Under the pieces are notes generated by a model that was not told the origin of the DNA, made no database searches, and saw only the letters and a program-made list of their open reading frames with translations. DNA of 64,000 bases from Chloroflexota bacterium (GTDB taxonomy: Bacteria > Chloroflexota > Limnocylindria > P2-11E). Shown here piece by piece: positions 13,724 to 18,737 of the stretch (the first letter of the stretch is position 1; each line of letters opens with the position of its first letter). The position numbers were made by a program, and so were the translations under genes. The DNA lies in contig VBEZ01000165.1 in NCBI GenBank assembly GCA_005882255.1, positions 1-64,000 on the forward strand, in the 5' to 3' direction.

Positions 13724-14751
13724 GCGATCTCGAGCCGGACCGGCCGAACAGCGTTGTTGGCGTACCCGAGCTCGTTGCGAACTTCTGCCAGCGGCTGTTC
13801 GTCGCCATCCGTCGTGACCGCGCGCGCCATGACGACCAGCTGGCCGCTCGTACCGGGGGCGACGCTGGCGTGCCACTGCCGCCAGGCGTAAGGCGACAGC
13901 GCATCGTCGAGCGTCGCGTCCCGCCAGCTTCGGCCGCCGTCGGCGGAAACGTCGACGCGAGCGAGCGAGCCGCGACCGTCCCACGCGTAGCCGCGTACCA
14001 CGAACGGGCGCGCCGGGAGCCGATCGTCATCGCGCGGCCACGCGATCAAGGCGCGCGGCGCGATCTCGCGCAGCGGGCGCTCGCCGACGACGTAGCGCCT
14101 GGCCTGGAAGAAACCCTCGAACCTGCGCTCGACCAGCCGCAGCCGGGCGAGCCATTTCACGGACGCCATGCCGTACCAGCCCGGCACCAGCAGGCGCAGC
14201 GGCGCGCCGTGCTCGCGCGGAAGCTCGTCACCGTTCATCGCGTACGCCAGCAAGACGTCGTCCCGCGTCGCGTCGGCGAGCGGCAGCGATCGTTCGTACG
14301 CGATGCGTGCCCCCGCGTCCGCGGATGCCCCCGAGTCCGCGCCCACGCAGACGACCTCGACCGCGCTCGCAAGCGGTCCCGCCATCCCGAGGACCGTACG
14401 GAGTGACGCGCCGGTCCACTCGGCCGTGCTCACGGCTCCGGTGCGCCATTGCTCGCCCGGGGCCGGAGGGTCGAGGAAGGCACGCCCGTTCCCGGCGCAC
14501 TCCAGCGTCACGACGAGCGAGCGCCGCGGCAGCGATCGGAGATCGTCGACATCCAACAGCAGCGGCGTGCGCACCGCGCCGTCGATGGCCAGCCGCTCCG
14601 GGGCCCGCGGTATCGCGAAGTGATCGCGTACGTAGTGCCGTGACGCGGGCGTGACCACGCCGACCTGTCGTTCGAGCGGCGTTTCCGCATTGAGCGGTTC
14701 GCGACTCAGATACACGAGCTCCTCCGCGGCCACGCGGCCAGTCTCGGGCAT
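13720..14751 (-). CDS. Sulfite-oxidase-family molybdopterin oxidoreductase (Moco domain + dimerisation domain)
   Basis: LVVTLECAGNGRAFLDPP..PLRLLVPGWYGMASVKWLARL..GYAWDGRGSLARVDVSADGGRSW. Confidence 0.87.
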   Translation of the reverse strand: MPETGRVAAEELVYLSREPLNAETPLERQVGVVTPASRHYVRDHFAIPRAPERLAIDGAVRTPLLLDVDDLRSLPRRSLVVTLECAGNGRAFLDPPAPGEQWRTGAVSTAEWTGASLRTVLGMAGPLASAVEVVCVGADSGASADAGARIAYERSLPLADATRDDVLLAYAMNGDELPREHGAPLRLLVPGWYGMASVKWLARLRLVERRFEGFFQARRYVVGERPLREIAPRALIAWPRDDDRLPARPFVVRGYAWDGRGSLARVDVSADGGRSWRDATLDDALSPYAWRQWHASVAPGTSGQLVVMARAVTTDGDEQPLAEVRNELGYANNAVRPVRLEIA

Positions 14752-14773
14752 TTGGCGGACTAGGATTCTCACG

Positions 14774-15763
14774 ATGCCGCGGCGGGTGGTGAACCTCGCG
14801 CTTCTCATCGCCGTTCCCGTCCTCGTCGCGACCGGGTTGCTCGCTTGGATCGCCGCTCCGTCCGTCGCCTATGGGCTGATCCTGCTGCACCGCGTCGCCG
14901 GCGTCGGACTGGTACTGGCTCTGGCGTGGAAGTACGGCATCGCCCGGCGCTCGGTGCGTCGTCGCACGCGCGCCGGCATCGACATGACTTTGGCCATCGG
15001 CGGCCTCGCGTCACTTGCGCTGCTTGTCGTGCTGGGGCTTGGTCTCGCGTGGTCGATCGGCATCGTCTCGTTCGACCGGCCGCTTGCGTACTCGCTGCTG
15101 AACGTGCATGTTTTTGTCGGAGTCGCGCTCGTTCCGCTGATGCTCGCCCACGCCGCGGGTCGGTGGGAATCGCGGCCACCTCTGGCCGATCTCACTCGTC
15201 GTCGTTTCGTCGTGCGAGCGCTGGCGGTCGGCGTCGGAGCGCTCGTCGCGACAGCGGCCCTCGATCGCGTCGGCCTCGCGCGCCGCGCGACGGGATCACG
15301 CGCCGCGGCAGCGTTCAGCGCGAACGCGTTCCCGCTCACGATCTGGGCGTTCGACGCGGTACCCACGATCGACCTTGCGCGCTGGCGCATCCGGGTCGAT
15401 GGAAACGTCGCATCGCCGGGCACGATGGACTACGACGGTCTGCTCGCCTTGCCATCGACCGAGCGCGACGCGGTCCTCGACTGCACCGGTGGCTGGTGGA
15501 CCGAGCAGCGCTGGCGAGGTGTGACGCTCGCGGACGTGCTTGAACGGCACGGTGTTCGCGCGTCGGCCCAGCGCATCGACGTCGTGTCGCTCACGGGGCA
15601 CGCTTGGTCGTTCCCGATCGCGGAGGCGGAGCGTCTTCTCATCGCGACACACGTCGGCGGCGAGACGTTGAGCGCGGGACATGGGTATCCCGCGCGCCTT
15701 GTCGCACCCGAACATCGCGGATTCCAGTGGATCAAGTGGGTCAGTGACGTCCATGTCGCGTAG
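14774..15763 (+). CDS. Membrane cytochrome-b-like domain fused to sulfite oxidase/MsrP-type Moco domain
   Basis: About four N-terminal TM segments then RWRIRVDGNVASPGTMDYDGLLALPSTERDAVLDCTGGWWTEQRWRGVTLADVL..GYPARLVAPEHRGFQWIKWV. Confidence 0.83.
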   Translation: MPRRVVNLALLIAVPVLVATGLLAWIAAPSVAYGLILLHRVAGVGLVLALAWKYGIARRSVRRRTRAGIDMTLAIGGLASLALLVVLGLGLAWSIGIVSFDRPLAYSLLNVHVFVGVALVPLMLAHAAGRWESRPPLADLTRRRFVVRALAVGVGALVATAALDRVGLARRATGSRAAAAFSANAFPLTIWAFDAVPTIDLARWRIRVDGNVASPGTMDYDGLLALPSTERDAVLDCTGGWWTEQRWRGVTLADVLERHGVRASAQRIDVVSLTGHAWSFPIAEAERLLIATHVGGETLSAGHGYPARLVAPEHRGFQWIKWVSDVHVA

Positions 15764-15766
15764 CCT

Positions 15767-16717
15767 ATGAAGATGGGCCGCCTGTTCGTCATCGCCATCG
15801 CCGGTCTCGCGCTCGTCTCGGCGGTGGTCATCGCGCGCGGCGTCGCTGCTCCGGGGAGTGTGCCCGGCCTGCCCGCCTTGCAGCTCGCGGGCGGCGTGGT
15901 GGTCCAAGCCGGCGCACCGCTTCCGATGCTGCAGGACATCGATCCAGAGGATCTCGATCCCGCTCGCGACGTGCCCGGTCTCCCACCGGTCGCGCTCGCT
16001 CCACCCGGCGGCGCCGTGGTGCAGGCGAATGGCATCCGCATCCCGAAGCCGGCGATGCCGACCGGGGCGCGCCGCGTCGGGATCCAGGTCGGTCACTGGA
16101 TGACGGATCAGGTGCCGGCCGAGCTCGGAACGCGCATCACGTTCCAGACCGGAACGAGCTGGGCAGGCGTGCAGGAAGTCGACGTGAACATGGATATCGC
16201 GCAGCGCATCAAGGCACAGTTGGTCTCGCGCGGATACGTCGTCGACATCATCCCGACGACGGTCCCCGTGGGATATCTCGCCGACGTTTTCCTTGCGCTA
16301 CACGCGGACGGTGATGGCACAGGAGAGAACAGCGGCTTCAAGATTGCGCACGGATCGCGGCGCGGCCCGTACGAGGACAAATTGGTCGCAGGGTTGACCG
16401 ACGAGTACGCGAAACTGACAGGTCTTGACAATGACGTCGAGCACGTAAGTCGAGCCATGAGCGCGTACTACGCTTTCAACTGGGGTCGCTACCAACACGC
16501 TGCCGCGGCGCATACACCGGCCGCGATCCTCGAGATGGGCTACCTCTCCAACGATCACGACCGCGACCTTTTGGTCAACAGAGCGGACGGGGTGGCCACG
16601 GCGATCGTCAATGGGCTGCAGCGTTTTCTCGACGAGGTCCCGCGTTCGAAGATCTTCGGAGAGGACCTCATCGTGCCGCCGCAGCGCAGCTTCCCCAGTC
16701 CGTCGCCCCGGACCTAG
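15767..16717 (+). CDS. N-acetylmuramoyl-L-alanine amidase (Amidase_3)-like secreted protein
   Basis: N-terminal hydrophobic signal/anchor; VGIQVGHW..DVNMDIAQRIKAQLVSRGYVVDII..ADVFLALHADG..PAAILEMGYLSN. Confidence 0.82.
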   Translation: MKMGRLFVIAIAGLALVSAVVIARGVAAPGSVPGLPALQLAGGVVVQAGAPLPMLQDIDPEDLDPARDVPGLPPVALAPPGGAVVQANGIRIPKPAMPTGARRVGIQVGHWMTDQVPAELGTRITFQTGTSWAGVQEVDVNMDIAQRIKAQLVSRGYVVDIIPTTVPVGYLADVFLALHADGDGTGENSGFKIAHGSRRGPYEDKLVAGLTDEYAKLTGLDNDVEHVSRAMSAYYAFNWGRYQHAAAAHTPAAILEMGYLSNDHDRDLLVNRADGVATAIVNGLQRFLDEVPRSKIFGEDLIVPPQRSFPSPSPRT

Positions 16718-16801
16718 TCCACTACGGCTATAGGCACCAACGCCGCCAGCGAGTACGATCCAGCCGCGCCCAACGGGCGACGAAACCTAAGGAGGCCGGA
16801 C

Positions 16802-16864
16802 ATGAGCGTTTACACCGCACGCGACCGCAGCGCCGGCCTCCTCGCCGTGGTGTCCGCGGCCTAA
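16802..16864 (+). CDS. Putative 20-aa leader peptide MSVYTARDRSAGLLAVVSAA
   Basis: ATG preceded by AAGGAGG; followed by hairpins and the RIO kinase gene. Confidence 0.5.
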   Translation: MSVYTARDRSAGLLAVVSAA

Positions 16865-16923
16865 GGCCGCCGCAGCACGCCGCGCGCGGCGCCTCTATCG
16901 CTCATGCCCTCCTCCACGGAGGA
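16856..16923 (+). promoter_or_regulatory. Candidate translational attenuator: stop-codon hairpin, GC hairpin, and SD-sequestering hairpin
   Basis: GCGGCC-TAA-GGCCGC (16856-16870), CGCCG-CGCG-CGGCG (around 16878-16891), TCCTC-CACG-GAGGA (16910-16923) 3 nt before ATG 16927. Confidence 0.45.
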
Positions 16924-16926
16924 CGC

Positions 16927-17712
16927 ATGCCGTCACGCGACCTGTTTCCCAGCGACTGGCTCGTCACCGGTGCCTACCGGGATACGCGGCTGGGCGTCAT
17001 CAAGTCCGGCAAAGAGAGCGAGGTCCATCTCGTCGCCCGCATCGGGAGCGACCGAACGACCCTGCTCGCCGAAAAACGCTTCAAGGCGCGCGACCGTCGG
17101 TCGTTCCAGAACGACTGGACGTATCGCGGCGTGTGGGGCGGGGGCACGCGTCGCGAGAGCCGCGCGATGAAGAAGAACACGCGGTTCGGCCATGAAGCTG
17201 CCCAGGCCCGCTGGATCTCGAACGAGTGGGACAGCCTGGTACGTCTCCACGAAGCCGGCGTGACCGTTCCACCACCGGTCGAGCTGTTGGACGACGGCTA
17301 CCTGATGGCGTTCGTCGGCGACGGCGAGCGTGCGGCACCGCGTCTCTCGGAGGTCGACCTCGCCCCGGCGGTCGCGCAGCGGGTATGGGACGAGCTGCTC
17401 GACGAGCTTGCGGTGCTCGTTTCGATCGACCGCGTCCACGGCGACCTCTCGGCGTTCAACATCCTGTGGTGGCGTGAGCGCGCGGTCCTCATCGACTTCT
17501 CGCAGACCGTCGAGATCGTCACCCATCCGGCCGCGCACGATCTGCTGACGCGCGACATCACGTCGCTCGCCCGGTACTTCCAGCGACGCGGCGTTGAGGT
17601 CGCGATCGATCGCGTCTTAGGTGGCATCGGCGCGGACGTGCATCGCTTCACGCGACAGCTGGGCGACGTACGCGTTGGTGGCAGACGAGCGCCGGAGCGC
17701 TGGCGCGACTAA
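16927..17712 (+). CDS. RIO-type serine/threonine kinase
   Basis: GVIKSGKESEVHLVARIG..LAEKRFKARDRRSFQNDWTYRGVWG..DRVHGDLSAFNILWWRERAVLIDFSQTVE. Confidence 0.88.
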   Translation: MPSRDLFPSDWLVTGAYRDTRLGVIKSGKESEVHLVARIGSDRTTLLAEKRFKARDRRSFQNDWTYRGVWGGGTRRESRAMKKNTRFGHEAAQARWISNEWDSLVRLHEAGVTVPPPVELLDDGYLMAFVGDGERAAPRLSEVDLAPAVAQRVWDELLDELAVLVSIDRVHGDLSAFNILWWRERAVLIDFSQTVEIVTHPAAHDLLTRDITSLARYFQRRGVEVAIDRVLGGIGADVHRFTRQLGDVRVGGRRAPERWRD

Positions 17713-17723
17713 AGTGAGCCCCC

Positions 17724-18737
17724 ATGCCCGCGAAGAAGACAACGGCCAGGAAGACCACCGCCAAGACCACGCGGAAGACCACACGCAAGCGCCGCGGTCC
17801 GGCGGAGCCGCGCGGTCCGGAGCCGACCCAGAGCGCGATCGCGTCCGACGACGCGGAGATCGGCGACCTCGTCGCGCACATTCGTTCGTCGCGCGGCGCG
17901 GTGATCGGCGCATACCGCGACCCCTACGGCGGCACGCCCCTGGTGTTCGCGTCGGTTCCCGTCGGCGCCGTCGAGGCTACGGCGTTCCAGCGCGACCTAT
18001 CGCGCACTCATGCGGAACGGCTCGCGACCGCGATCGGCGACACCGGCGCGTTCCTCGACCCGGTCATCGCGATCCCGTCCAAGGAGGGATTCCTCTCGCC
18101 GAACGGACGTCACCGCATCGCCGCGGCCCGCCAGCTCGGTCAGCGCTCCATCACGGTGCTTGCCACCGCGGACCCTGCGCTCGCGTACCGCATCCTCGCG
18201 CTCAATACGGAAAAGGCGCACAACCTGCGCGATCGGAGCCTCGAGGTGATCCGGATGGCGCGCTCCCTGGCGAAGGAACAGCCGCGCTCGAAGGAGAAAG
18301 AGCACGCGACATCGTTCGAATCGCCGGCATTTCTCACGCTGGGTTGTGCGTACGAGAAGCGCGATCGCTTCTCCGGTTCGTCGTACAACTCGATGCTGCG
18401 CCGGGTCGAGCTGTTCCTCGATCAGACCCTGCCCGCCGCGCTGCGGCAGCGGGAGCAGTGGGCGGTCCGCCTGCTCGACATCGACGACCGCGTGAGCGCG
18501 CACGTGAAGGCGCTGCAGGAGCTGGGGATGAAGAGTCCATACCTCCGGGCGGTCGTGGTCGCCCGTTGCAATCCGGTCCGCTGGATCCCGACGAAGAAGG
18601 GTGCCGGACCGCCGATGTCGGTCGCCGAAGCGCTCACACGCATGACGAAGAACGTGCGCGCTTTCGAGCCGAAGAAGGTGCGACCGCAGGATCTCGCGTT
18701 CGCCGCGACGGTGGGTGGGACGGAAGAGGGCTCCTAG
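17724..18737 (+). CDS. ParB-like nuclease-domain protein with Lys/Thr/Arg-rich N-terminal tail
   Basis: MPAKKTTARKTTAKTTRKTTRKRRG then ATAFQRDLSRTHAERLATAI..FLDPVIAIP..LSPNGRHRIAAARQLG. Confidence 0.75.
   Translation: MPAKKTTARKTTAKTTRKTTRKRRGPAEPRGPEPTQSAIASDDAEIGDLVAHIRSSRGAVIGAYRDPYGGTPLVFASVPVGAVEATAFQRDLSRTHAERLATAIGDTGAFLDPVIAIPSKEGFLSPNGRHRIAAARQLGQRSITVLATADPALAYRILALNTEKAHNLRDRSLEVIRMARSLAKEQPRSKEKEHATSFESPAFLTLGCAYEKRDRFSGSSYNSMLRRVELFLDQTLPAALRQREQWAVRLLDIDDRVSAHVKALQELGMKSPYLRAVVVARCNPVRWIPTKKGAGPPMSVAEALTRMTKNVRAFEPKKVRPQDLAFAATVGGTEEGS

Follow-up and report, generated by a model that had tools for sequence, protein, structure and literature searches.

Bacterial RIO kinases are widespread and of obscure function, and no paper describing the regulation of one, including PA4780, was found in the open-licence literature, where absence is not proof. 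The window analysed here, a stretch of 64,000 nucleotides from a soil Chloroflexota bacterium (genome of 2.67 Mb in 252 contigs), raises the question of what sets the level of such a kinase: in it, a RIO kinase gene is preceded by a short ORF with a strong Shine-Dalgarno (SD) sequence and by stacked hairpins, an arrangement that the initial annotation had likened to the translational attenuators of erm and cat genes.

The kinase gene and the elements of its leader

The gene encodes a protein whose top PDB relatives are archaeal Rio1 (E about 3e-34) and whose P-loop (SGKESEV), catalytic (HGDLSAFN) and IDFSQ motifs all align with archaeal Rio1 and contain the RIO1 signatures GKE, HxDLSxxN and IDxxQ. 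It is a genuine RIO1-type protein, and its gene is the sole RIO gene found in the source genome, for which a scan of contigs in a public collection with one protein gave one Chloroflexi MAG as near relative. RIO1 relatives take part in the maturation of the small ribosomal subunit in eukaryotes and have been proposed to do so in archaea, and the role of the present kinase is probably ribosome-related as well.

Several neighbouring genes were recorded. An N-acetylmuramoyl-L-alanine amidase gene (15767-16717) lies upstream of the leader and is found 5' of the leader in nearly all kinase-bearing genomes of the window's family, and no amidase match turned up next to the kinase in the sister families f3 and f4. 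A gene for a 337-aa protein (17724-18737) begins 11 nt past the kinase stop; the protein has no match in Pfam or NCBIfam, contains a stretch (NGRHRIAAARQLG) that is ParB-like in appearance, and is encoded 3' of the kinase in four genomes of the genus, its gene not being found beside the kinase elsewhere. Farther upstream, two molybdopterin oxidoreductase genes (PF00174; 13720-14808 on the minus strand and 14651-15763 on the plus strand) overlap in divergent orientation, the latter seemingly with an extra membrane-like part. Second, partial RIO kinase copies are present in two genomes of genus g8 (L051 on G015:C44 and L052 on G011:C93), and L052 resembles a decayed remnant.

The elements of the leader and the kinase gene, all on the plus strand, are as follows.

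16751-16759, plus strand: predicted extended -10-like promoter element (TACGAT at 16754-16759), its spacing kept in relatives
16767-16779, plus strand: 5'-terminal hairpin P0, CGCCC-AAC-GGGCG, directly 5' of the leader SD
16789-16795, plus strand: leader SD AAGGAGG, near-perfect, its duplex with the anti-SD scored by energy
16790-16808, plus strand: segment 1, the leader initiation region AGGAGGCCGGACATGAGCG, pairing with segment 2 or segment 3
16802-16864, plus strand: leader ORF of 20 codons and TAA, MSVYTARDRSAGLLAVVSAA
16833-16842, plus strand: segment 2, CCGGCCTCCT, within the leader ORF
16856-16870, plus strand: local stop-codon hairpin GCGGCC-TAA-GGCCGC
about 16879-16890, plus strand: GC hairpin, seen in the sequence
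16899-16915, plus strand: segment 3, CGCTCATGCCCTCCTCC, co-varying in swap tests and paired in the minimum-energy fold
16910-16923, plus strand: hairpin 3:4, TCCTC-CACG-GAGGA, which sequesters the kinase SD
16918-16923, plus strand: segment 4, the kinase SD GGAGGA, closed by CCTCC of segment 3
16927-17712, plus strand: RIO1-type protein kinase, 261 aa, ATG at 16927 (PF01163, E 1.5e-33)

The leader folds at -81.7 kcal/mol, as compared with -68.3 +/- 3.8 for its dinucleotide shuffles (z -3.55). No relevant Rfam match above the gathering score was found in the window and 19 related loci, and the window holds no intrinsic terminator of the hflXr/rli80 type between leader ORF and kinase.

Most of these elements are common to the relatives of the window. 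Of the 28 genomes of its family, 18 have both leader and kinase (in one of these, G024, the contig ends within the kinase) and the remaining 10 have neither. The upstream hexamer, the ORF with its strong SD and the hairpin over the kinase SD, all of which the initial annotation had pointed out, are present and were recovered throughout the family: a -10-like hexamer (TAnnnT; TACAAC in two), mostly preceded by TG in the extended form, stands 42-47 nt 5' of the leader ATG in 16/17 leaders, an equivalent hairpin closes the kinase SD in 16/17, and the ORF keeps its start and frame in all 17. The P0 hairpin appears in the compensatory forms CGCCC/GGGCG, CGACC/GGTCG and CACC/GGTG. In codons 2-9 of the 14 alignable leaders, 62% of the single-nucleotide codon differences are synonymous, with 26% expected, an excess that is inflated by the relatedness of the compared sequences and that suggests that the ORF is translated; the family peptide reads MS[VE]RxARDAAGL. 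The stop-codon hairpin, which had also been singled out, does exist in the window, but it is shared with the closest relative only (2/17; L001 and L002), so that it is probably incidental and was rejected as a functional element. A scan of 301 genomes of the phylum with exact patterns returned only five copies, all at RIO loci of the window's own family; the motif varies too much to be caught by such patterns.

Rival pairings in the window's family

Two pairings and the 5'-terminal hairpin (16767-16779) were absent from the initial annotation. The leader SD (AGGAGGCCGG, 16790-16799) is the perfect 10-bp complement of a part of the leader's own reading frame, segment 2 (pairing 1:2), and segment 1, through the start codon to 16808, is complementary to segment 3 (CGCTCATG...CCTCC, 16899-16915; pairing 1:3), which lies directly 5' of the kinase SD and whose CCTCC otherwise closes segment 4 (pairing 3:4). 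Since segment 1 and the CCTCC of segment 3 each have two partners, 1:2 together with 3:4 competes with 1:3, and at the level of sequence and energy the leader ORF is tied to the SD of the main gene by mutually exclusive pairings.

When the leader is folded in isolation, its minimum-energy structure contains 1:3. The predicted cost of opening the kinase SD is 10.2 kcal/mol with 1:3 forbidden and 4.6 with 1:2 forbidden, and the same two values are obtained when a ribosome is taken to cover the leader start (10.2) or segment 2 (4.6), these energies ignoring co-transcriptional folding. Opening is cheaper in the 1:3 state in 17/17 leaders of the family. The multiple alignment mis-registers segment 3, and co-variation was therefore counted from per-sequence duplexes and by swap tests. 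Own 1:3 pairs reach -26.4 kcal/mol versus -23.9 (sd 0.55) for permuted pairs, with none of 5000 permutations reaching the own value. The swap tests, for this and for the other pairings, count related sequences as independent and do not correct for phylogeny, and the changes that are truly independent trace to perhaps 4-6 lineages. The double changes are concentrated at AUG-4 to AUG-1. The pairing 1:2 is almost invariant within the family, and 2:3 does not rise above shuffles there (family z 0.1); a search for 1:3 in other families was negative.

Leaders and terminators across the phylum

By profile search, 87 of 400 genomes of the phylum have a RIO kinase and, in a separate count, 87 RIO loci were examined for leaders, the start codons of kinase and leader being chosen by SD score. 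A leader ORF with a strong SD (SD energy <= -10) precedes 72% of these loci. Among 248 control genes, taken from the window and from 20 Chloroflexota stretches, the share is 6%, and among the 53 controls with intergenic upstream DNA it is 11%; a strong-SD leader ORF combined with a strong 1:2 pairing is found at 52% of RIO loci and 2-4% of controls. Widening the search to 800 nt gave further leaders, and by the SD and pairing criteria f25, f41, f74, f80 and f83 have no clear leader. As in known attenuators, a short leader ORF with its own SD is conserved in position and frame. The peptides themselves are unrelated between families.

Across families the 1:2 pairing is kept with compensating flanks, as in GGAGGCCGG:CCGGCCTCC, in GGAGGACC:GGTCCTCC of the sister family f4, and in GGAGGGC:GCCCTCC, GGAGGCACA:TGTGCCTCC, GGAGCACG:CGTGCTCC and others. 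Over 20 families own pairs score -15.7 versus -13.9 (sd 0.6) for swapped ones, and compared with the dinucleotide shuffles of each leader the family mean z is -1.28 (Wilcoxon p 0.0012), the pairing not being significant alone at some single loci. The initial annotation had made its proposal depend on conservation and covariation in related genomes; both extend through the family, and the core of ORF and SD pairing recurs across the phylum. The leader is, with high confidence, a real and conserved cis-regulatory element.

What the leader is coupled to differs between families. Many relatives have an intrinsic terminator between leader and kinase, and its 5' arm pairs with segment 2 (pairing 2:3); an Anaerolineae example is CCGCAGGCGCG...CCTGCGGTTTTC, the class labels Anaerolineae and Ktedonobacteria being inferred here, partly from neighbours. 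In the terminator-bearing leaders, 2:3 scores -24.1 for own pairs versus -20.6 (sd 0.95) for permuted ones (0/1000) and stands out against shuffles (family mean z -1.06, p 0.0016), and a terminator of the hflXr/rli80 type with an antiterminator in the leader ORF is found, e.g., in f10, f18, f40, f49 and f54. The purely translational block that had been proposed for this locus does not describe these relatives, which use a transcription terminator instead. The best reading of these sequences is an output that is translational in the window's family and largely transcriptional elsewhere. Because 1:2 recurs across the phylum, with 2:3 outside and 1:3 inside the window's family, the putative sensor, in which the ORF itself masks the leader SD, is probably old and its output re-wired within the phylum, so that one ribosome sensor would apparently have been shifted between transcription termination and translational control.

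Two groups of leaders have peculiarities of their own. In the Ktedonobacteria-like f21 (L094, L095, L098, L101, L103, L107, L109, L129) two ORFs at the RIO loci are candidate leaders: the upstream ORF, which has a GGAGCGTG-type SD, an in-ORF complement such as TCACGTCTCC and a peptide containing HHVSE or SRLREG, is followed by terminator-like hairpins and by a second ORF that overlaps or abuts the kinase start and was often picked by the automatic leader choice. In f10 (L117, L126, L137, L138, L143, L145, L147, L148) and f40 (L140-L142) a recurrent APP stands at or near the end of the leader peptide, which results from the frame in which segment 2 (GCGCGCCTCC) is translated, and pausing at PP could contribute to the signal in these leaders.

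Possible mechanisms and known systems

The arrangement of the leader, which most of the phylum has kept, points to control of the RIO kinase level by how well ribosomes can start or move on the leader ORF, and we consider ribosome occupancy of this ORF the likely principle of control. According to this reading, the short and strongly initiated ORF would sit in rival hairpins, and its use by ribosomes would pick which of them forms. In the window's family the kinase SD is predicted to be closed when 1:2 and 3:4 are formed or when a ribosome is held at the leader start, and to be opened through 1:3 when the leader is uninitiated or a ribosome stands on segment 2. In terminator-bearing relatives 1:2 would act as anti-antiterminator, 2:3 as antiterminator and 3:4 as terminator; stalling of a ribosome on the leader start would turn the kinase on. 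The predicted effect of start occupancy is thus opposite in the two groups, closing the kinase SD in the one and opening the kinase in the other, and because of this opposite logic one or both of the predicted directions may be wrong. The signal is probably failing translation initiation or early elongation.

A more specific proposal would make the leader a feedback sensor for 30S subunits: when competent 30S are scarce the leader start would stay empty, 1:3 would form and the kinase would be made, and when they are plentiful the leader would be occupied and the kinase shut. We hold this version to be rather doubtful. If it is true, the RIO kinase is part of a ribosome-supply loop across Chloroflexota, and bacterial RIO proteins are tied to ribosome biogenesis as they are in eukaryotes and archaea. 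More generally, a leader that is kept across a phylum and reads ribosome occupancy would tell under which conditions the cell calls for the kinase, these being changes in translation initiation or early elongation, and would offer an entry to kinase function in ribosome maturation, rescue or drug tolerance.

Other explanations have to be weighed against control by ribosome occupancy. The RIO kinase, or another ribosome-associated protein, might bind the leader hairpins and repress its own translation, the ORF being secondary; such autoregulation would suit the participation of RIO1 relatives in small-subunit maturation, and the CCTCC of segments 2 and 3 resembles the anti-SD at the 16S 3' end. 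However, segment 2 in relatives tracks the changing SD flank and not a fixed 16S-like sequence, a fixed protein-binding motif was not seen in the leaders, and the ORF keeps its frame and start with an excess of synonymous change, which makes autoregulation improbable in our judgement. The same low standing is given to attenuation of the trp or erm style, in which particular codons or a nascent peptide would stall the ribosome and provide the signal. The peptide conserved in the window's family with its synonymous changes and the APP recurring at the end of Anaerolineae leaders speak for a role of the peptide, but it is unrelated between families and has no stretch of one repeated residue, and APP and AGL are encoded just where the conserved RNA segment 2 lies.

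An RNA thermometer, in which the two SD hairpins would melt with temperature and the ORF would be incidental, draws on the presence of each SD within a hairpin; at about -19 to -35 kcal/mol, however, the predicted duplexes of segment 1 are more stable than simple melting at the temperature of growth would allow, and both the retention of the ORF across the phylum and the terminators of many relatives speak against it, so that we find a thermometer hard to credit. As for chance pairing in an ordinary promoter region of GC-rich DNA, hairpins and complementary stretches do come easily at high GC and some single loci are not significant alone, but the enrichment over controls, the swap and shuffle tests and the co-occurrence of leader and kinase in 18/18 genomes make this explanation barely credible.

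Control by ribosome occupancy, as preferred here, can be compared with several known leaders. In erm attenuators, segments pair as 1:2, 2:3 and 3:4, and stalling is specific to peptide and drug. The RIO leader resembles that of ermC in having a leader ORF, four segments and a main SD closed by 3:4, and differs from it in that the rival pairing in the window's family is 1:3, not 2:3, and in that its peptide, unlike an arrest peptide, is not conserved between families. A drug- or peptide-specific stall of the ermC kind is not supported, because the peptide is conserved only within the window's family. The erm/cat analogy of the initial annotation stands for the leader ORF and the SD-sequestering hairpin, which are conserved and co-vary, and lacks support for the erm-type stall and for 2:3 in this family; it is only partly right, since the pairings that matter most are made by the initiation region of the leader itself.

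In the hflXr (lmo0762)/rli80 leader of Listeria, a leader ORF lies over the anti-antiterminator and is followed by antiterminator and terminator (PMC6310831). The order of segments is the same in terminator-bearing RIO relatives. The gene controlled encodes a ribosome-directed factor, a ribosome-splitting GTPase, in the case of hflXr, and a RIO kinase, probably ribosome-related, here. Unlike hflXr/rli80, however, RIO leaders have the leader SD itself as segment 1, the window's own family is without terminator, and the RLR macrolide motif of the Listeria peptide is set against a RIO leader peptide that varies from family to family. In toiL-topAI of E. coli, a broad sensor of translation stress, base-pairing joins the leader ORF to the ribosome-binding site of the gene downstream, and ribosomes held at the start of or within the leader change translation of the main gene (PMC12121999). 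The RIO leaders share with toiL a leader ORF region that pairs near the ribosome-binding site of the main gene and a predicted decisive role of ribosome position, although their partners, unlike those in toiL, are the leader's own initiation region and the stretch just 5' of the kinase SD, and start occupancy in the window's family is predicted to close rather than to open the kinase SD. The genes vmlR, cplR and vga(A) are ABC-F-type resistance genes in Firmicutes and not RIO kinases. For their leaders, stalling at the start codon has been proposed as the signal (PMC12121999), and such a signal would fit a segment 1 made of SD and start codon. The best reading is that the RIO leader belongs to the architectural kind of hflXr, vmlR and toiL, with a RIO kinase as a new target.
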